64,000 nucleotides of DNA, taken from assembly GCF_030816725.1 (NCBI RefSeq), contig NZ_JAUSYG010000001.1:3286001-3350000 (forward strand), in the 5' to 3' direction. The position numbers were made by a program, and so were the translations under genes. This document shows, one piece after another, positions 53,910 through 64,000 of the stretch; the first letter of the stretch is position 1; each line of letters begins with the position of its first letter. This DNA is from Pseudarthrobacter defluvii. GTDB lineage: Bacteria > Actinomycetota > Actinomycetes > Actinomycetales > Micrococcaceae. Under the pieces are notes generated by a model that made no database searches, was not told the DNA's origin, and saw nothing but the letters and a program-made list of their open reading frames with translations.

Positions 53910-54827
53910 TTAAGGAAGGACCACGTTTACCGGGTCCTTGCCCTCGAGCAGCAGCCCGATCTGCTTCCTGAGGAGCCGGACCATCCGGGGGAACATGGCC
54001 GAGCTGGCACCACCAACGTGCGGGGTGATGAGCACACCGGGGGCGGTCCACAGCGGATGGTCCGCCGGCAGCGGTTCCGGATCGGTCACGTCCAGGGCAG
54101 CCCGCAGCCGGCCGCTGGAGGTCTCGGCGAGCAGCGCATCGGTATCCGCCACGGGACCGCGGGCCACATTTAGCAGCAGGGCACCGTCCGGCATGGCCGC
54201 CAGGAACTTTGCGTCCACCAGCTGCTGGGTCTGCTCACTCAGCGGAACACTGACCACCACGATCTCGTGCAGCGGCAGCTGCTCGTAGAGCGCATCGATC
54301 CCGTAGATGGTGCCGCGTTCGTCCTCCCGGGCCCGGCTGGCCATCCGGGTGACCTCGGTTTCGAACGGCAAAAGCCTGGCCTCGATGGCTTTGCCCACTC
54401 CCCCGTAGCCCACCAGCAGCACGCGGCGGTCGGCGAGGCTGGGCCGTGGGCTGTTGTCCCAGGTTCCTGTGCCCTGGTTCTGCACAAAGTCCGGAATCCC
54501 GCGCTGGGACGCCACCATCATGCCCACGGCGAGCTCCGCCGTCGACGTTTCATGGACTCCGGCCGCGTTGGCGAAGGTGACGCCCGCGGGCAAAACCTCG
54601 GCCACGCCGTCGTACCCGATGGACTGGCTCTGGACCAGGCCGACATCGACGCCTTCCAAGGCGGCGAGACCGGCCGATTTGCCCATGTAGCCGGGAACCA
54701 GCAGGTCCAGCCGGCCTTCCGGGGCGGGCCCGGTGAGGTCCCAGCGGACGAACTCGACGCCCTCCATCGGCGCGAGCGCGTCAATGAGCCGCTCGTCGGG
54801 CAGGCATACGCGCAGCCGGGCGCTCAT
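53910..54827 (-). CDS. D-2-hydroxyacid dehydrogenase family protein
   Basis: A 305-residue NAD-dependent D-isomer-specific 2-hydroxyacid dehydrogenase. The Rossmann motif is LLVGYGGVGKAIEARLL near residue 137. The catalytic Arg (LLNVARGPVADTDALL), Glu (DVTDPEPLP) and His (ITPHVGGASS) are present. ATG 54827 overlaps the deoR stop by 4 bases, so the two are co-translated. It is the third gene of the Gfo/Idh-DeoR-dehydrogenase arm of the sulfosugar locus. A role on a 2-hydroxy acid such as sulfolactate is possible but not indicated by any visible residue. A general phosphoglycerate dehydrogenase-like enzyme is the neutral call. Confidence 0.88.
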   Translation of the reverse strand: MSARLRVCLPDERLIDALAPMEGVEFVRWDLTGPAPEGRLDLLVPGYMGKSAGLAALEGVDVGLVQSQSIGYDGVAEVLPAGVTFANAAGVHETSTAELAVGMMVASQRGIPDFVQNQGTGTWDNSPRPSLADRRVLLVGYGGVGKAIEARLLPFETEVTRMASRAREDERGTIYGIDALYEQLPLHEIVVVSVPLSEQTQQLVDAKFLAAMPDGALLLNVARGPVADTDALLAETSSGRLRAALDVTDPEPLPADHPLWTAPGVLITPHVGGASSAMFPRMVRLLRKQIGLLLEGKDPVNVVLP

Positions 54828-55606
54828 GCGGCGACCATCAGCTTCACGTTCGCGGCACTCAGCGCACTCTCGATTTCCTGGGGCGGCGGTGCATCCGTCA
54901 CCAGGATGTCCACCGCATCAAAAGCCGCCAGCCGCGCCAACGCATAACGCAGCATCTTCTGGTGGGTTGCCACCACCACCACCTGTTCCGCCGCATTCAT
55001 AAGGGCGATCTTAGTGGCACGCTCCACGTCGCGTTCAATGTAAAACGCCTCATCGTGGATGCCGCTCACCCCGATGAATGCTGTCTTGGCACGCAGCCCG
55101 GCTGCGGCGCTGATGGTCATGGGCCCGCTGAAGGCCTGGCTGTCCAGCAGCAACTCCCCGCCCAGGCAGATGGTGCGGGCAGCCGTCAGCTGGAGGCAGC
55201 GCTGGATGGTTGGCGCGGAGGGCGTGATGACGGTGCCCGTGAAGGAAGTGGGGAGCTGCTGCGCTATCTGGTACGTGGTGGTGCCGGCGTCGAGAATGAC
55301 GGCGTCCCGCTCCCCGATCAGCGACAGGCAGGCCCTGGCCACCCGCAGCTTGGCGTCCGCATCCTCCCTGACCCTGGCGGCGAAGTCGGCGTTTTGGCCA
55401 TGCCCGTCCACTGCGCTGACACCGCCGTGGACCACCCGGGCCAGCCCGCGTTTGGACAGCACCCGGGTGTCCCGTCGCACGGTCATGTCGGAGACCGCAA
55501 AGGTCTCCGCCAGGTCGTTGGTGGAAATGAACCCCCTCCGGCCAAGCTCGTCCAGGATGGTGCGCTGACGGGGCGTCAGCGGTGCCTCTTCGTGTGCGGT
55601 GCTCAT
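54824..55606 (-). CDS. DeoR family transcriptional regulator of the sulfosugar locus
   Basis: A 260-residue DeoR/GlpR-type regulator. The N-terminal helix-turn-helix is TPRQRTILDELGRRGFISTN and LAETFAVSDMTVRRDTRVLS. The sugar-phosphate-sensing domain includes the VILDAGTTTYQIAQQL loop and the IGVSGIHDEAFYI region. ATG 55606 has a GGGAGGGAAG ribosome site. E. coli uses a DeoR-type protein (YihW/CsqR) for sulfoquinovose genes, so the family fits. It is 70 bases downstream of the Gfo/Idh gene, and this gap contains one of two matching TGTTG-N6-CCAACA palindromes. Confidence 0.93.
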   Translation of the reverse strand: MSTAHEEAPLTPRQRTILDELGRRGFISTNDLAETFAVSDMTVRRDTRVLSKRGLARVVHGGVSAVDGHGQNADFAARVREDADAKLRVARACLSLIGERDAVILDAGTTTYQIAQQLPTSFTGTVITPSAPTIQRCLQLTAARTICLGGELLLDSQAFSGPMTISAAAGLRAKTAFIGVSGIHDEAFYIERDVERATKIALMNAAEQVVVVATHQKMLRYALARLAAFDAVDILVTDAPPPQEIESALSAANVKLMVAA

Positions 55607-55652
55607 ATGGCGCTCTTCCCTCCCCAATGTGCCGGGCAGGAGCCTGGCGGGA

Positions 55653-55668
55653 TGTTGGACTTCCAACA
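55653..55668. promoter_or_regulatory. Predicted DeoR operator 1
   Basis: TGTTGGACTTCCAACA, a perfect palindrome (7+2+7), lies 46 bases before the deoR start. It agrees with operator 2 at 13 of 16 positions. Confidence 0.7.
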
Positions 55669-55676
55669 AAACTCTT

Positions 55677-56942
<1,266 letters not shown>

Positions 56943-56959
56943 CTACAACGAGGTGGAAC

Positions 56960-57862
56960 GTGCCCCAACCGTCAACTGGAACCCTGCTCTTCGTAGGTTG
57001 CGCCACCCTTGACTCCATCGCTTTGGTCCAGGATTACCCGGCGGCAGACAGCCGCACGGTGGCTGCGGACTTTGCGACGGCGGGCGGCGGCCCCGCTGCC
57101 ACAGCAGCCGTTGCGGCGGCCCGGGCCGGCGCAAATGCTGCCTTTGCCGGAGTCCTCGGCACCGATGAGGAAGGCGACCGCATCATCCACGGCCTGCAGG
57201 CCGAGGGGGTGGATACCTCCGCCGTCGTCCGGGATGAGGACGTCAGGACCGGCGCCAGCGTGATCGTGGTCAGCAAAGCCACCGAAAGCCGGGCCATCGT
57301 CACCCGCCCTGTCCCGCCGGTCAGCTTCCCCGCCGGCGGCCGCTTCTCGGAGCTGCTGCAGTCCGCCGCCTGGGTGCACACCGACCACCTGGGCTGGAAC
57401 GCCGTAGCCAACGCCGCCGGCCGTCCCGCCGGGCTCATGATCAGCGTCGACGCCGGCAACCCGATCCCGGAGTTCAGCCCCCGCGGGATCGCACTGTATG
57501 TACCCACCATCGAAAGGCTCCGCGCAGGATACGGCGCGGACCTCTCCCCCGAGGCCCTCCTGGGCAAAGCGCTCGACGACGGCGCCTCCGCCGTCGTCGC
57601 CACCGCCGGCTCCGACGGCGCGTGGGTTGTGGAACGCGGCGGCGAACCCGTGCACGTCCCCGCCACCCCCGCGACCATCGTCTCCACCCTCGGTGCCGGT
57701 GACGTCTACCACGGCGCCCTTCTGGCGGCCGTCGCCGCCGGACTTCCGCTCGTGGATGCGGCAGTCTTCGCCGGCCGCACAGCCTCCGCCTCCTGCGGCG
57801 GGCTGGACGGCCGCTCCGCCATCCCTCACCAGACCATCAATCCCGTCCCAGCATCCATCTGA
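56960..57862 (+). CDS. PfkB family sugar kinase, YihV-like (sulfofructose kinase candidate)
   Basis: A 300-residue ribokinase-fold enzyme. The N-terminal GGGPAATAAVAAARAGAN (residues 39-56) and the catalytic anion-hole/base motif LGAGDVYHGALL (Asp near residue 249) are textbook PfkB. The same GGGPAATAAVAAAR run occurs in E. coli YihV as I recall it, and a basic residue, Arg32, stands at the position of the YihV sulfonate-binding Lys27. GTG 56960 has GAGGTGG just upstream, giving MPQPSTGTLLFVG; the earlier GTG at 56915 is less likely. It probably phosphorylates sulfofructose at C1. It is followed at 21 bases by the aldolase gene. Confidence 0.88.
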   Translation: MPQPSTGTLLFVGCATLDSIALVQDYPAADSRTVAADFATAGGGPAATAAVAAARAGANAAFAGVLGTDEEGDRIIHGLQAEGVDTSAVVRDEDVRTGASVIVVSKATESRAIVTRPVPPVSFPAGGRFSELLQSAAWVHTDHLGWNAVANAAGRPAGLMISVDAGNPIPEFSPRGIALYVPTIERLRAGYGADLSPEALLGKALDDGASAVVATAGSDGAWVVERGGEPVHVPATPATIVSTLGAGDVYHGALLAAVAAGLPLVDAAVFAGRTASASCGGLDGRSAIPHQTINPVPASI

Positions 57863-57883
57863 ACCAGCTGAAAGAAGCAGCCC

Positions 57884-58768
57884 ATGAGCCCCACAGACCT
57901 CTCCCCCCTCCAGCGCCCGTCAGGCGCCTTCGCGATGCTCGCCGTGGACCAGCGTGAAGCCATGCGGAACATGTTCGCCGAGCACACAGACCAGCCCGTC
58001 ACCGACGAGGACCTGCGCGACTTCAAGCTCGAAGCCGCCCGGATCCTTACCCCTTACGCCTCAGGCATCCTGATCGACCGCCAGTTCGCCCTGGACCAGG
58101 CCATCGAAGCGGGCGTGGTGGATCCCGGCTGCGGTCTGATTGCCTCCGCCGACCACTTCGAGTCCGCGCACGGCGAACTGGTGGGCGAGGTGACCATCGA
58201 CAAGCTGGTGGACCCGCACAAGTACAAGGCCCTGGGCGTCAAGGCCCTCAAGCTGCTGGTGCTCTACCGGCCCGATGAGCCCGCGGAAGGCCGGGTGGCG
58301 ATGGTCAAGGAGTTCGTTGAAAGCTGCCGGTCCGGCGGGCTGATCAGCATCATCGAACCCGTCTCCCGCAAGCCCCTTGCCGGCGGTGACTTCGACTGGA
58401 ACGCCGGAATCCTGGCCGCAGCCAAGGAACTCGGCAGCCTTGGCGCCGACCTCTACAAGGCCGAGGTCCCCTTCAAGGGACAGGCGTCCGAGGAGCAGGT
58501 CCGTGCGGCCTGCGCCGAACTGACCAAAACCATCGACGGCCCCTGGGTGGTCCTGTCGTCCGGTGTTCCCGAAGACGTCTTCCCGGACGCCGTCCGCTGG
58601 GCCTGCCTGGAAGGCGCCAGCGGCTTCCTCTCCGGACGCGCCGTATGGGCGTCCTGCATCGGCGCCCCCGACGTCGTCGAATCCCTGTCAACCGATGCCG
58701 TCCGCAGGCTGCAGCGCCTCTGCGCCGTGGTGGACGAGATCGTCTCCGCCCAAAGGAGCCACGCCTAG
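57884..58768 (+). CDS. YihT-like class I aldolase (sulfofructose-1-phosphate aldolase)
   Basis: A 294-residue TIM-barrel class I aldolase. It matches E. coli YihT from memory along its length: SGAFAMLAVDQREAMRNMFA at residues 13-32, ALKLLVLYRPDE at 121-132, ISIIEPVSRKP at 154-164, and LGADLYKAEVPFKG with Schiff-base Lys192 (Lys193 in YihT). PWVVLSSGVPEDVFPDAVRWA and SGRAVWASCIG follow, with Arg252 equivalent to the sulfonate-binding Arg of YihT. The reaction cleaves 6-deoxy-6-sulfofructose-1-phosphate to sulfolactaldehyde and dihydroxyacetone phosphate. Tagatose-bisphosphate aldolase (LacD) is the alternative, but these details favour YihT. GAAAGAAG precedes ATG 57884. Confidence 0.9.
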   Translation: MSPTDLSPLQRPSGAFAMLAVDQREAMRNMFAEHTDQPVTDEDLRDFKLEAARILTPYASGILIDRQFALDQAIEAGVVDPGCGLIASADHFESAHGELVGEVTIDKLVDPHKYKALGVKALKLLVLYRPDEPAEGRVAMVKEFVESCRSGGLISIIEPVSRKPLAGGDFDWNAGILAAAKELGSLGADLYKAEVPFKGQASEEQVRAACAELTKTIDGPWVVLSSGVPEDVFPDAVRWACLEGASGFLSGRAVWASCIGAPDVVESLSTDAVRRLQRLCAVVDEIVSAQRSHA

Positions 58769-58774
58769 CACCCC

Positions 58775-58794
58775 TGGCACGCCGCGGCGTGCCA
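58775..58794. repeat. Perfect 20-base palindrome between aldolase and transporter genes
   Basis: TGGCACGCCGCGGCGTGCCA reads the same on both strands. It lies 7 bases after the aldolase stop and may act as an mRNA-stabilising hairpin, an attenuator between enzyme and transporter genes, or an operator. Confidence 0.7.
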
Positions 58795-58870
58795 ACGGGG
58801 CCACCCCTTCCGCAGCAAGCAAACGCAGTAAGCAACCCAGGCACAGCAAACACTCAACGAGGAGATTATT

Positions 58871-60160
58871 GTGAGTCAGATTTCACGCAGGCAGGCAGTC
58901 GCCCTTCTGGGCGCCCTTGGCTTCGGCGCTGCTGCGGCAGCGTGCGCCGGCCCCGGGGGTTCCCCCAAACCGGCAGGTGCCTCCGGACCGGCGGCCCCCT
59001 CCACCGGTGCCGTCACCGGCAAGGTGTCGTTCGCCCACTGGCGCGGTGAGGACAAGGCCGTGTTCGACGAACTCATCAAGCGTTTCGCGGCCAAGCACGA
59101 CGGGGTGGAGGTGGCCCAGGACATCTCCACGTCCAACGACTACAACGCCCAGGCCCTGCAGAAGCTCCGCGGCGGCTCCATCGGCGACGCGTTTGCCACC
59201 TTCCGCGGCGCACAGTTCAAGAACTTCACCGAAGCTGGAATCTATACCGAACTCAAGGACAGCCAGGCGGTGAAGAACTACCAGAAGGGGCTGCTGTCCG
59301 CGGGCCAGAACGGTGACAGCCAGCTCGGCCTGCCCTACCAGGTGGTGTTCCCCATGCCGATGGCCAACCTCGACCTGTTCGATAAGGCAGGCGCGGAGAT
59401 CGCCCCCAAGAACTGGGACGCGTTCCTGGGCATGTGCGAAAAGCTCGCCTCCGCCGGTGTCATCCCCATCTCCTGGCCGGGTGGCGACGTTGGAAACGGC
59501 GGCCAGCTATTCAACTGCATGATCGCCAACAACGCCCCCGTGGACGACATGTGCGCCCAGATCGAACAGGGCAAGCTCAAGTGCACCGACGACTGGTTCA
59601 TCAAGATGCTCAACCAGTACAAGGACCTGCGGCCGTTCGTGCAGCCCAACGCCACCGGCACCGCGGTGGAACCGGCACAAAACCTGTTCTCCCAAGGCAA
59701 AGCAGCCATGCTGGCCACGGGCTCGTACCACCTCGCCGCGGTCCGCGGACTCGGCGCCAAGTTCCCCATCGACCTGGTGTTTCCCAACACCACCTCGGAC
59801 GGCAACGGCAAGTATGAGGGCGCCTACAACGCCACCTTCATTCTGGGCGTCAACTCGGCCAGCAAGAACCAGGCCGCCGCGGCAGCCTGGATCGATTTCC
59901 TCTCCGAGCCGGAGAACGCCGGCTACTACGCCAACCAGACAGCCCAGCACGTGTCCGTGGACAAGGTGGAGTACACCAACCCGGACCTGAAGCGGCTGAG
60001 CCCCTGGCTGCAGAAGAAGACGGCGCTCGCAGCCCGCTTCCAGTTCAACAACCTCGATGTCCGCAACGCGGTGGAAGCCAGCGCCACCGCTGTCATCTCG
60101 GGCACCAGCCCTGAGCAGGCAGCCGCTGCCGCCCAGAAGATTGTTGACGAACGGCTATGA
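58871..60160 (+). CDS. ABC transporter sugar-binding lipoprotein
   Basis: A 429-residue extracellular solute-binding protein of family 1. The N-terminal SRRQAVALLGALGFGAAAAACAGP shows Arg-Arg, a hydrophobic core and a lipobox ending at Cys25. The mature part begins after a Pro/Ala/Gly linker. Body motifs such as SIGDAFATFRGAQFKNFTEAG and LFSQGKAAMLATGSY are usual. GTG 58871 has GAGGAGAT upstream. Together with the two permeases it makes an importer, expected to bind sulfoquinovose or its glycerol glycoside. The importer may use a shared ATPase, as none is encoded here. Confidence 0.93.
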   Translation: MSQISRRQAVALLGALGFGAAAAACAGPGGSPKPAGASGPAAPSTGAVTGKVSFAHWRGEDKAVFDELIKRFAAKHDGVEVAQDISTSNDYNAQALQKLRGGSIGDAFATFRGAQFKNFTEAGIYTELKDSQAVKNYQKGLLSAGQNGDSQLGLPYQVVFPMPMANLDLFDKAGAEIAPKNWDAFLGMCEKLASAGVIPISWPGGDVGNGGQLFNCMIANNAPVDDMCAQIEQGKLKCTDDWFIKMLNQYKDLRPFVQPNATGTAVEPAQNLFSQGKAAMLATGSYHLAAVRGLGAKFPIDLVFPNTTSDGNGKYEGAYNATFILGVNSASKNQAAAAAWIDFLSEPENAGYYANQTAQHVSVDKVEYTNPDLKRLSPWLQKKTALAARFQFNNLDVRNAVEASATAVISGTSPEQAAAAAQKIVDERL

Positions 60161-61113
60161 GCATCCATCCCGGAACCGCCGCCAAGCACAAGGCACCGGA
60201 CAGTCAGGCCGCCGCGAACGCTCCCAAAGTGCGCCGCCGCTCCCCCACCCGGGTGAATCCGGCACTGTACCTGTTCCCGCTCCCCGCCGTCGCCGTCATT
60301 GCGTTCTTCCTGGTGATGCCCACACTGCAGGCCTTCCAATACGCCATCACCGACTGGAACGGCTTCTCCGCGGCATTCAACTACGTGGGCCTGGACAACT
60401 TCATCCGCGCGTTCACCAACGACTCGCTGTTCACCAACGCCCTGACCAACAACCTGAAGTTCGTGCTGCTGGTGGTGATCGCGCAGACGTTCTTCTCGCT
60501 GATCCTCGCCCTGCTCCTGACGAAGAATTCGCGCGGCAGCATCCTGCTCCGCGCCCTGTTCTTCTTCCCCACCATCCTGTCCTCCGTATCGGTGGCCTTC
60601 ATCTGGAAGTTCATCTACGACCCCAACTTCGGGCTGGCCAATTCTGTCCTTCGAACCGTTGGGGTGGACGGCGGCGCCTACCTCGGCAACGACGCGCAGG
60701 CCCTCTATTGGGTGGCTGTCACCCAGGTGTGGTTCCACTCGGGCCAGATGATGGTGGTTTACATCGCCGGCCTGCAGGCCATCCCGCGGGAACTCTATGA
60801 AGCAGCGGAAATGGACGGGGCCAACAAGTGGCAGCAGTTCAAGTCCATTACTTGGCCGTTCGTGGCCCCCGCCACCTCCATTGTGGTGGCCTACACCACC
60901 GTGCAGTCGTTCAAGGCGTTCGACCTGATCCTGGGCATCGCGGGCAACCCGCCCAAGAGCTCCCTGGACATCCTGTCCACCCGTATTTACAGCACCTTTG
61001 CCAACTCGGAGTTCGGCTACGCCGCCGCCCAGTCGATCATCTTCATGGCGATGATCGCCCTGGTCACGTGGCTGCAGCGCCGCCTGCTCCGGCTGACCCC
61101 GAAGGGGGAATAG
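60157..61113 (+). CDS. Sugar ABC permease (MalF type)
   Basis: A 318-residue inner-membrane permease with six helices and a cytoplasmic N-terminus of about 40 residues rich in basic amino acids. The EAA loop (PRELYEAAEMDGANKWQQFK) is intact. ATG 60157 overlaps the binding-protein stop by 4 bases. It starts the transmembrane half of the importer with the next gene. Its substrate is inferred from the locus to be sulfoquinovose or its glycoside. Confidence 0.94.
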   Translation: MSIHPGTAAKHKAPDSQAAANAPKVRRRSPTRVNPALYLFPLPAVAVIAFFLVMPTLQAFQYAITDWNGFSAAFNYVGLDNFIRAFTNDSLFTNALTNNLKFVLLVVIAQTFFSLILALLLTKNSRGSILLRALFFFPTILSSVSVAFIWKFIYDPNFGLANSVLRTVGVDGGAYLGNDAQALYWVAVTQVWFHSGQMMVVYIAGLQAIPRELYEAAEMDGANKWQQFKSITWPFVAPATSIVVAYTTVQSFKAFDLILGIAGNPPKSSLDILSTRIYSTFANSEFGYAAAQSIIFMAMIALVTWLQRRLLRLTPKGE

Positions 61114-61117
61114 CAGC

Positions 61118-61933
61118 ATGCTCGCCTCGCTAAGCCGCCGCGCCATCCTGGCCATCTATGCGGTCATCATCATCATTCCCCTGACAGTAGTGGCCTTCGG
61201 CAGTTTCAAGTCCACGCAGGAACTTTTCGCCGGGCCGTTCAGCCTCCCGCACTCCCTATCCCCTGACAACTTCGCCGAGGTGGTGGGCGGCCAAAACCTG
61301 GGTAATTCCTTCATCAACAGCGCGATTGTCACGGGCATCTCCGTACCTCTCACCCTGTTCCTTGCCAGCCTGGCCGGCTACGCCGTCTCACGGCTGAAGG
61401 GCTTCATGTCCTGGGCCATCTTCGGCTTTTTGGTGCTGGGCATGGCCATCCCGGCGCAGGCGAACATGGTGCCGCTCTACGTTCTCTTCGGCAGGCTTGG
61501 CCTGCTGGACAGCCTCGCCGGCCTCATCCTGGCCAACGTGGTGTCCACCCTGCCCATCGCAGTGTTCATCCTGGGCGGTTTCATGCGGACCCTGCCCAAG
61601 GAACTCTACGAAGCCTCCTCCATTGACGGCAGCGGCCCGTGGAAAACCTACTCCTCCATCGCACTGCCGCTGTCCGCGCCTTCCATCGCAGCGGCCGCCA
61701 TCTTCCTGTTCGTCATCCACTGGAACGAGCTGCTGTACCCGCTGCTGTTCATCCAGTCCCCGGGGAACCGGACCTTGCCGCTGGCTCTGCTGAGCTTCCA
61801 GGGCGAGTTCCAGACCAACTACCCGCTGCTGTTTGCGGGCGTGACCCTGGCGTCCTTGCCCGTGGTGGTGGCCTACGTCTTCCTGCAGCGCTACTTCGTG
61901 GCCGGCATCACGGCAGGGGCAAGCAAGGGATGA
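61118..61933 (+). CDS. Sugar ABC permease (MalG type)
   Basis: A 271-residue inner-membrane permease with six helices. The EAA loop is LPKELYEASSIDGSGPWKTY and the C-terminus QRYFVAGITAGASKG is typical. GGGGGAA lies before ATG 61118. It overlaps the aldehyde dehydrogenase gene by 4 bases, so transport and oxidation are in one transcript. Confidence 0.94.
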   Translation: MLASLSRRAILAIYAVIIIIPLTVVAFGSFKSTQELFAGPFSLPHSLSPDNFAEVVGGQNLGNSFINSAIVTGISVPLTLFLASLAGYAVSRLKGFMSWAIFGFLVLGMAIPAQANMVPLYVLFGRLGLLDSLAGLILANVVSTLPIAVFILGGFMRTLPKELYEASSIDGSGPWKTYSSIALPLSAPSIAAAAIFLFVIHWNELLYPLLFIQSPGNRTLPLALLSFQGEFQTNYPLLFAGVTLASLPVVVAYVFLQRYFVAGITAGASKG

Positions 61934-63435
61934 GCACGACGGCGGCGCGTGGCTTTGCAGCCGGCGAACAACTTCCAGCCAACGAAAGGCACCCAGTGAA
62001 CCTCAAATCAGCCCGGCACCTCGTGAACGGCACATGGCACGCCGCCGGAACCACCAAGGACGTGATTGACCCGGGCAACGGCAGCACCGTAGGCGAGGTG
62101 GCCTGGGGCGGGGCCGAAGACGCCACCATAGCCGCGGACGCCGCCGCCGAGGCTTTTGGTTCCTGGTCCCGCACCACGGTCCGGCACCGGGCAGACCTGC
62201 TGCGCAACGCCGCCGACCTCCTGGCCGAACGCCGAGACGAACTCGCACACACCCTGGCGCTCGAGGCGGGCAAGCGGCTGCCCGAAGCACAGGGCGAGGT
62301 GGACTTCTCGGTGGAGTACTTCCGCTGGTTTGCCGAGGAAGCGCGCCGTGCCACCGGCACCGTCAGCCCGCCCGAGCTCCAGGGCCGCCGCCATCTCAGC
62401 AGCCGCAGGCCCATCGGCGTGGCCCTGAGCCTCACGCCCTGGAACTTCCCGGTGTCCATCCAGGCCCGGAAGCTGGCTGCGATGCTCGCGGCCGGCTGCA
62501 CGGTGGTGGGCAGGGTCTCCGAAAAGGCCCCGTTGGCTGCCACCGGACTCTTCGAGGTCCTGCATGACGCCGGCTTCCCCGCCGGGGTGGTCAACCTGGT
62601 CCATGGGCCCTCCCGCGAAATCACCGGGGCCCTGATGTCCCACCCGGCGGTCAGGGCGGTCAGTTTCACCGGTTCCACCGGGGTGGGGCGGCAGATCATG
62701 GTTTCGGCTTCCGAGCGCGTGGTCCGGCCGCTGCTGGAACTGGGTGGCAACGCACCTTTCATCGTGTTCGAGGACGCCGACCTGGACGCCGCGGTCGAGG
62801 GTGCCGTGCTGGGGCGGCTCCGCAACACCGGCCAGTCCTGTGTGGCCGCCAACCGGTTCCTGGTCCAGGACAGCATCGCCGAGGAGTTTGCCCGGAAGCT
62901 GGGCGCCCGCTTTGATGCGATGACCGTTGGGCATGGAGTTCCCGACGACGGCGCACCGGTTCCGGACCTCGGTCCCGTGATCGACGCCGAAAGGGTGTCC
63001 GCGGTGCAGGCGCTGGTGGATGACGCCTTGGAGCGCGGTGCCCGCCGCGTCACCGAACGCACGTCTGCCCCCGCAGAAGGTTCCTATCTGGCACCCACGC
63101 TGCTCACCGACGTCCCGGACGACGCACTCCTGGTGACGGAGGAAGTCTTTGGTCCGGCAGCCGGCGTCGTCACCTTCTCTTCGGAGGACGAGGCAATCCG
63201 GAAGGCGAATGCCACGGAGATGGGCCTCGCCGCCTACGTCTGGAGCGGCAGCCCGAAGCGCGGCTGGGACATCCCGGAGCAGCTCGAAGCCGGCATTGTG
63301 GGCGTGAATGACCCCCTGCCCTCTGTCGCCTTCGCCCCCATGGGCGGGGCCAAGCAGTCCGGCCTGGGCCGGGAAGGATCAAGCCTGGGCCTCGAGGAGT
63401 TCGAGGAGGTCCAGTACGTGGCCTGGAGGCCCTAG
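61930..63435 (+). CDS. Aldehyde dehydrogenase, candidate sulfolactaldehyde dehydrogenase
   Basis: A 501-residue NAD(P)-dependent aldehyde dehydrogenase of the succinate-semialdehyde (GabD-like) group. The cofactor loop is SFTGSTGVGRQIM. The catalytic base is Glu270 in LELGGNAPFI and the nucleophile Cys304 in NTGQSCVAANRF, 34 residues apart as normal. GabD-like enzymes oxidise sulfolactaldehyde to sulfolactate in known sulfoglycolytic bacteria, and the neighbours favour that here. ATG 61930 overlaps the permease gene by 4 bases. A GTG at 61996 with GAAAGG upstream, giving VNLKSARHLVNG, is a strong alternative start that would remove the unusual N-terminal 22 residues. Confidence 0.92.
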   Translation: MSTTAARGFAAGEQLPANERHPVNLKSARHLVNGTWHAAGTTKDVIDPGNGSTVGEVAWGGAEDATIAADAAAEAFGSWSRTTVRHRADLLRNAADLLAERRDELAHTLALEAGKRLPEAQGEVDFSVEYFRWFAEEARRATGTVSPPELQGRRHLSSRRPIGVALSLTPWNFPVSIQARKLAAMLAAGCTVVGRVSEKAPLAATGLFEVLHDAGFPAGVVNLVHGPSREITGALMSHPAVRAVSFTGSTGVGRQIMVSASERVVRPLLELGGNAPFIVFEDADLDAAVEGAVLGRLRNTGQSCVAANRFLVQDSIAEEFARKLGARFDAMTVGHGVPDDGAPVPDLGPVIDAERVSAVQALVDDALERGARRVTERTSAPAEGSYLAPTLLTDVPDDALLVTEEVFGPAAGVVTFSSEDEAIRKANATEMGLAAYVWSGSPKRGWDIPEQLEAGIVGVNDPLPSVAFAPMGGAKQSGLGREGSSLGLEEFEEVQYVAWRP

Positions 63436-64000
63436 GTGCTGACCACCGGGCTGGTGCTGGGCGCCGTCGTCATGGGTGCCGGCATGCAGAGGATCACCGG
63501 GATGGGCTTCGCCCTTGTGGCGGCCCCCTTCCTGGTCCTGCTCCTGGGGCCGGTGGAAGGCGTGGTGCTGGTGAACGTCTGCGGCGCCGTAACGGCAGGC
63601 GCCATCATCCTCCGCGTGGTCAGGGACATCGACTGGAAACGGTATCTGCTGCTCGCAGCCTCCGCCCTGCTGGGCATCATCCCGGCCGCATTCCTGATCC
63701 GCCTCATCCCACCGGCGGTCCTGGAGATCTCCATCGGGGTGCTCCTCGCGGCCGGGCTAACGGTCCTGCTCGTCCTGAAGTCCGCCACCCTCCCGGAGCG
63801 CCGCCGCTACCTCTTCACTGCGGGCGGCATCAGCGGGTTCATGAACACGGCAGCGGGCGTGGGCGGCCCGGCTGTCAGCATGTACTCCATTGCCACCCGG
63901 TGGCAGCACAAGTCCTTCGCGGCCACCATGCAGCCGTACTTCTTCACCATCGGCTCGTTCTCGCTGATCTCGAAGGCCATCACGGCTCCCGAGACCTTCC
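63436..64000 (+). CDS. TauE/SafE family exporter (partial), candidate sulfolactate exporter
   Basis: The N-terminal 188 residues of a TauE/SafE (TSUP) membrane protein; the gene runs off the window. The family marks are the first helix GLVLGAVVMGAGMQRITGMGFALVAAP and the repeated SGFMNTAAGVGGPAVSMYS motif. GTG 63436 directly follows the dehydrogenase stop codon, with GGAGG 6-10 bases upstream. TauE/SafE proteins export sulfite and organosulfonates, so sulfolactate export is the natural role at the end of this pathway. Helices 1-6 are visible. Confidence 0.9.
   Translation, partial: MLTTGLVLGAVVMGAGMQRITGMGFALVAAPFLVLLLGPVEGVVLVNVCGAVTAGAIILRVVRDIDWKRYLLLAASALLGIIPAAFLIRLIPPAVLEISIGVLLAAGLTVLLVLKSATLPERRRYLFTAGGISGFMNTAAGVGGPAVSMYSIATRWQHKSFAATMQPYFFTIGSFSLISKAITAPETF

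Follow-up and report, generated by a model that had tools for sequence, protein, structure and literature searches.

A probable Arthrobacter AK04-type sulfo-EMP cluster in Pseudarthrobacter defluvii

The genome of the soil actinobacterium Pseudarthrobacter defluvii very probably carries an actinobacterial sulfo-EMP cluster of the Arthrobacter AK04 type for the use of sulfoquinovose (SQ), a sulfur-containing sugar of plants, located at the end of the 64,000-nucleotide stretch analysed here (the window; positions 3,286,001-3,350,000 of a complete single-contig genome of 4,580,739 bases, 4.58 Mb). The reading is based on gene content, gene order, family membership, residues, and conservation. According to PMC8873060, an estimated 10^10 tons of SQ are produced each year, and bacteria of such a kind pass the sulfur of SQ on to other microbes as sulfolactate. 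The cluster type is already published and the locus is one more carrier of the pathway, an observation that is right but ordinary. The analysis adds little to this: the position of the isomerase gene, the placement of a hydroxyacid dehydrogenase outside the pathway, the lack of an ATPase gene in the cluster, and a proposed candidate operator, together with two small extras, namely a segment of about 10.9 kb that some genomes have and others lack at one site, and conserved sequence in the divergent control region.

Gene layout and proposed pathway

Open frames exist for all the genes named by the sequence-only reading (a YihT-like aldolase, a YihV-like PfkB kinase, a DeoR regulator, an ABC importer, a GabD-like dehydrogenase, and a TauE/SafE permease), and their families and tight order are confirmed. 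The same reading had noted that no isomerase lies in the window, which holds inside its limits, and extension of the contig locates a YihS-type isomerase gene that begins at extended position 64,222, 42 bp past the end of tauE (extended 64,179). From the kinase through the isomerase, successive genes are spaced by -4 to 102 bp. The features are as follows:

53910..54827 (-): D-2-hydroxyacid dehydrogenase (PF02826), judged a flanking gene
54824..55606 (-): DeoR-family regulator (PF08220 and PF00455), putative regulator of the cluster
55677..56819 (-): SqgA, NAD-dependent sulfoquinovosidase (GH188), a Gfo/Idh/MocA protein (8qc2, 8qc3)
56880..56921 (.): conserved stretch of the divergent control region, candidate operator (23-locus alignment)
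56915..57862 (+): PfkB-family sulfofructose kinase, YihV type (7ag6, PF00294)
57884..58768 (+): class I sulfofructose-1-phosphate aldolase, YihT type, DeoC/LacD superfamily (1to3, 7ag7, tree)
58871..60160 (+): ABC solute-binding protein (PF01547)
60157..61113 (+): ABC permease 1 (UgpA-like, below cut-off)
61118..61933 (+): ABC permease 2 (PF00528)
61930..63435 (+): GabD-like aldehyde dehydrogenase, putative sulfolactaldehyde dehydrogenase (SSADH family; start codon uncertain)
63436..64000 (+): TauE/SafE permease, putative sulfolactate exporter (PF01925), running to the window end with its stop at extended 64179
64222..65496 (extended numbering; genome 3350222-3351496, past the window): YihS-type isomerase (2rgk, 7ag4)

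In the proposed pathway, the solute-binding protein and the two permeases, probably together with an ATPase whose gene lies elsewhere, would import SQ or its glycosides, SqgA would cleave the glycosides with NAD+ as catalytic cofactor, and the YihS-type isomerase would convert SQ to sulfofructose. The PfkB kinase would turn sulfofructose into sulfofructose-1-phosphate, which the class I aldolase would split into DHAP and sulfolactaldehyde; the GabD-like enzyme would oxidize sulfolactaldehyde to sulfolactate, and TauE would export the product, by analogy with PMC8873060. The probable target of the DeoR-family protein is the region between the divergent sqgA and kinase genes.

Assignment of the sulfosugar enzymes

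The aldolase, the kinase, the isomerase, and SqgA each have the matching characterised sulfosugar enzyme as their best solved relative, and this supports the pathway reading. No NCBIfam model above its cut-off names any of the scanned cluster enzymes; the best models are those of tagatose-bisphosphate aldolase for the aldolase (142.6 of 184 bits), D-mannose isomerase for the isomerase (531.8 of 600 bits), ribokinase for the kinase (99.9 of 299.65 bits), and SSADH for the aldehyde dehydrogenase (478.1 of 646.35 bits).

The ranking of the aldolase models, all of them tagatose-bisphosphate aldolases below cut-off, would fit a tagatose- or galactose-type pathway, in which a PfkB kinase acts with a LacD-type tagatose-bisphosphate aldolase and the remaining genes serve general sugar uptake. 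The residues K192 and R252 of the window aldolase, which align with K193 and R253 of E. coli YihT as the sequence-only reading had pointed out, are equally compatible with such a pathway: both are present in 22 of 22 aligned aldolases, LacD included, and their use as a YihT signature is rejected. The comparison with solved structures, however, points the other way, with E-values of 3.4e-82 for 1to3 and 5e-82 for 7ag7 against 1.3e-13 for the best LacD, that is, about 279 bits to the YihT structures and 54 bits to LacD; 146 of 291 aligned residues are identical to E. coli YihT, and the curated LacD model TIGR01232 gives 46.7 bits at a cut-off of 432.2. Moreover, in a tree of 22 rows the window aldolase and E. 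coli YihT fall within a 15-row group (support 96/94), outside which stand five LacD/tagatose-bisphosphate aldolases and two weak matches from same-order genomes. Long branches drew a warning from the tree program, the five LacD/tagatose-bisphosphate rows do not form one clade, and the gap in the structure scores is the simpler argument. Grouping with LacD had been set beforehand as the outcome that would speak against the YihT assignment, and both the tree and the structure scores came out against LacD. Together with the presence of SqgA, the YihS-type isomerase, and the GabD-like dehydrogenase in the same cluster, this leaves the tagatose-type pathway with next to no probability, and sulfo-EMP is the reading kept here.

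The other two enzymes of the sulfo-EMP core are assigned along the same lines. The sulfofructose kinase structure 7ag6 is the first of 52 solved matches of the kinase (E 1.6e-28); the kinase shares only 99 of 277 aligned residues with E. coli YihV. The isomerase, 59% identical to E. coli YihS over genome 3350222-3351451, matches 2rgk (E 1.2e-175) and 7ag4 (E 2e-173) far ahead of the next epimerase (5.5e-44). As judged from sequence, the locus combines the marks of sulfo-EMP: a cluster-linked YihS-type isomerase, a YihV-type kinase, and a class I aldolase that groups with YihT and not with LacD.

SqgA finds its best solved relatives in 8qc2 (E 1.7e-231) and 8qc3 (E 3.8e-223), matched over 372-378 residues; PMC10755693 describes the two, under the names FlSqgA and ArSqgA, as GH188 sulfoquinovosidases that depend on NAD. 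Its sequence places it in this family and carries R166, L170, and K172, the sulfonate-site residues named in PMC11465081. A genome search with E. coli YihQ, the GH31 sulfoquinovosidase, gave no match in a run without a positive control.

The aldehyde dehydrogenase belongs to the SSADH/GabD family, and its best solved relative is the E. coli SSADH, ahead of 8of1, which we take to be RlGabD. Its Arg180, Glu270, Arg298, and Cys304 correspond, by motif and by alignment with 8of1, to Arg171, Glu261, Arg289, and Cys295 of RlGabD (PMC10599462), so that the catalytic Cys/Glu and the proposed sulfonate-binding Arg pair of GabD/SlaB enzymes are in place, although SSADH shares the fold and these residues are no proof of substrate. 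Since the closest solved relative is the E. coli SSADH, the assignment of the substrate rests on context. The enzyme has no second cysteine (CVA), as is the case for the Arthrobacter enzymes according to PMC10599462. Six matches to YihU-related proteins (29-34% identity) occur elsewhere in the genome and none in the cluster.

Transport, control region, and the flanking dehydrogenase

The cluster contains no ABC ATPase gene. The sole UgpC-type ATPase of the genome above the curated cut-off is encoded at 3,537,284-3,538,354, about 186 kb off, and is a candidate shared ATPase for the importer.

The description of the regulator as a DeoR protein as in E. coli stands for the family (PF08220, PF00455), whereas the resemblance to E. 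coli CsqR is only generic: 71 of 257 aligned residues are identical, every NCBIfam cut-off listed is missed, and the protein is best regarded as a generic DeoR-family member. A candidate operator for it is offered by the divergent region, where an alignment of the window with 22 of 25 related loci (L007, L024, and L029 were left out beforehand) reveals a conserved stretch at about 56880-56921 that holds the inverted repeat TGTTG-N6-CAACA at 56893-56908. Seventeen of the 23 loci carry the perfect repeat; in L016, L018, L019, L022, L025, and L027 it is imperfect. A genome search that tolerates up to 3 mismatches finds the 42-base stretch once. The repeat with its 3' neighbours has one exact match in the window, against a chance expectation of 0.41 matches when 3 mismatches are tolerated, so that the repeat alone is weak evidence; what speaks for it is its conservation over the 23 loci, which related sequences would show by descent too. 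A consensus scan of both strands of the divergent region found no promoters, and none of the titles or abstract openings retrieved for DeoR regulators or operators in actinobacterial SQ clusters deals with the operator. The conserved stretch overlaps the listed start of the kinase gene (56915), for which the GTG at 56960 is the likelier start codon: it is in frame, lies behind GAGGTGG, and aligns with an ATG in L027.

On the other side of the regulator gene, the sequence-only reading had begun the locus at 53910 and thereby taken in the D-2-hydroxyacid dehydrogenase, which the evidence places in the flank. A role of this enzyme in the pathway, for instance on sulfolactate, with a product that is not simply exported, would be in keeping with the 4-bp overlap between its gene and the regulator gene and with the adjacency of the two in 16 of the 25 loci. 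Conversely, the isomerase gene takes its place in four of the 25 (L016, L018, L019, and L022; among the others, L007 and L024 are truncated where the stretch ends and L026, L027, and L029 differ otherwise), and in all four aldolase-negative genomes fetched the dehydrogenase gene has the same MFS gene as its neighbour, and the retrieved stretch carries no gene of the cluster. These genomes were chosen for a dehydrogenase copy 84-88% identical; G009 and G025 have no aldolase match, and G074 and G117 are absent among the 41 aldolase matches in the genus. A pathway role is accordingly judged very unlikely, and the gene is treated as flanking. The distance between the dehydrogenase and MFS genes is about 0.3 kb in three of the four and about 1.2 kb in one, while in the genome of the window the MFS gene comes after the isomerase gene. 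The adjacency of the two genes in four of four aldolase-negative genomes indicates that about 10.9 kb is present or absent at one site.

Distribution, variants, and comparison with known systems

A match to the aldolase at E <= 1e-20 is found in 41 of 121 sampled genomes of the genus, its own included, with 36 of the matches at 81-100% identity and five at 32-33%. If the aldolase stands for the cluster, the cluster is common, not universal, in the genus. The view that the gene set and its controls are unusual is not supported, as a close aldolase relative occurs in 36 of the 121 genomes, again counting its own.

The YihS-type isomerase is present in 21 of the 25 loci within the stretch examined. 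In L014, L024, and L027 a protein of another isomerase family takes its place, and in the stretch examined of L026 neither a YihS-type nor an SftI-type isomerase was found. The L027 protein matches the NCBIfam model of the sulfoquinovose isomerase SftI (E 4.7e-83; 279.4 bits, cut-off 700). SftI-type (fucose-isomerase-like) genes lie between the aldolase and the transporter genes at L014:10906-12303, L024:1684-3105, L027:10882-12309, and L048:9787-11196, and this isomerase type is seen in some Arthrobacter relatives only. A metallopeptidase M24-like gene (Pfam E 6.3e-8; closest solved structure a dipeptidase) is found near the gene for the second permease or the aldehyde dehydrogenase in six distinct loci (L014:15422-16567, L024, L025, which equals L047, L026, L027, and L048); none of the titles or abstract openings retrieved for M24 peptidases or for hybrid or plasmid SQ clusters deals with it.

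Two plasmids carry related sets. The plasmid pYA7-1a of Arthrobacter sp. YA7-1 (L057; NZ_CP110115.1:80959-101804), typed as conjugative, encodes a GH188-like gene, a kinase, a YihT-type aldolase (69% identical), GabD, and TauE, along with an SDR, a dgoD-like dehydratase, a DHDPS-family aldolase, and an SMP-30 lactonase; no YihS-like isomerase match was found there. This oxidative set resembles the sulfofucose pathway described in PMC12421959, whose aldolase, however, belongs to PF03328. Plasmid c of Cereibacter sphaeroides (L058; NZ_CP015291.1) carries a YihT-type aldolase (61% identical), a kinase, a GabD-like dehydrogenase, a tartrate dehydrogenase, and ABC genes including an ATPase, with no YihS-like isomerase match in 16.9 kb. 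A movable sulfosugar module, in which lineages swap the front end (a YihS-type or SftI-type isomerase, or the sulfofucose-like oxidative set of pYA7-1a) and keep kinase, aldolase, GabD, and TauE, and which may serve other sulfosugars here too, is an improbable reading of the locus.

About 6 kb past the isomerase gene lies a second sugar locus (L004:8766-18145, genome 3357766-3367145). One of its proteins is L-fuconolactonase-like (NF052480, 124.7 bits, below the cut-off of 400), and another, which has no NCBIfam match, resembles an alpha-L-fucosidase; the locus possibly serves the use of L-fucose.

The closest known system is that of Arthrobacter AK01 and AK04, which were isolated on SQ, grow on it, and excrete sulfolactate, as followed by 13C-NMR (PMC8873060). 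According to the same source, the published cluster has homologues of YihS, YihV, and YihT, a GabD that replaces the reductase, ABC transporter genes, and, in AK04, TauE, and the order of steps proposed earlier for the window (uptake, cleavage, phosphorylation, aldol cleavage, oxidation to sulfolactate, and export) fits it. The AK04 contig NZ_JAJOMC010000078.1 (L015) matches 11 of 15 query genes, the ten cluster genes and the flanking hydroxyacid dehydrogenase, all collinear with the window, strands included, and 80-94% identical to it; by this sequence comparison, the four other flank-gene queries have no match on its 16.8 kb. Six more of the 25 loci (L006, L018, L020, L021, L022, and L023) are contigs in Fig. 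4 of PMC8873060. The IolG homologue of the Arthrobacter cluster, at that time unexplained, was later explained by PMC10755693, which established the SQase activity of SqgA relatives; the window SqgA appears to have no notable sequence difference from the two solved enzymes, with the sulfonate residues kept.

The yih cluster of E. coli K-12 shares the isomerase, the aldolase, and the kinase (59%, 146/291, and 99/277 aligned residues, as above) and differs in the remaining parts: it has the GH31 SQase YihQ where the window cluster has GH188, the reductase YihU in place of a dehydrogenase, YihO/YihP in place of an ABC importer and TauE, and another gene order. Lastly, Sulfo-EMP2 (SqvD, SqiK, SqiA) passes, according to the review PMC12890257, through the same intermediates as the pathway proposed for the window; what sets the window's cluster apart is its YihS-type isomerase and its class I aldolase. 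That 2026 review mentions hybrid sulfo-EMP1/2 sets in Actinobacteria and places Arthrobacter under sulfo-EMP.
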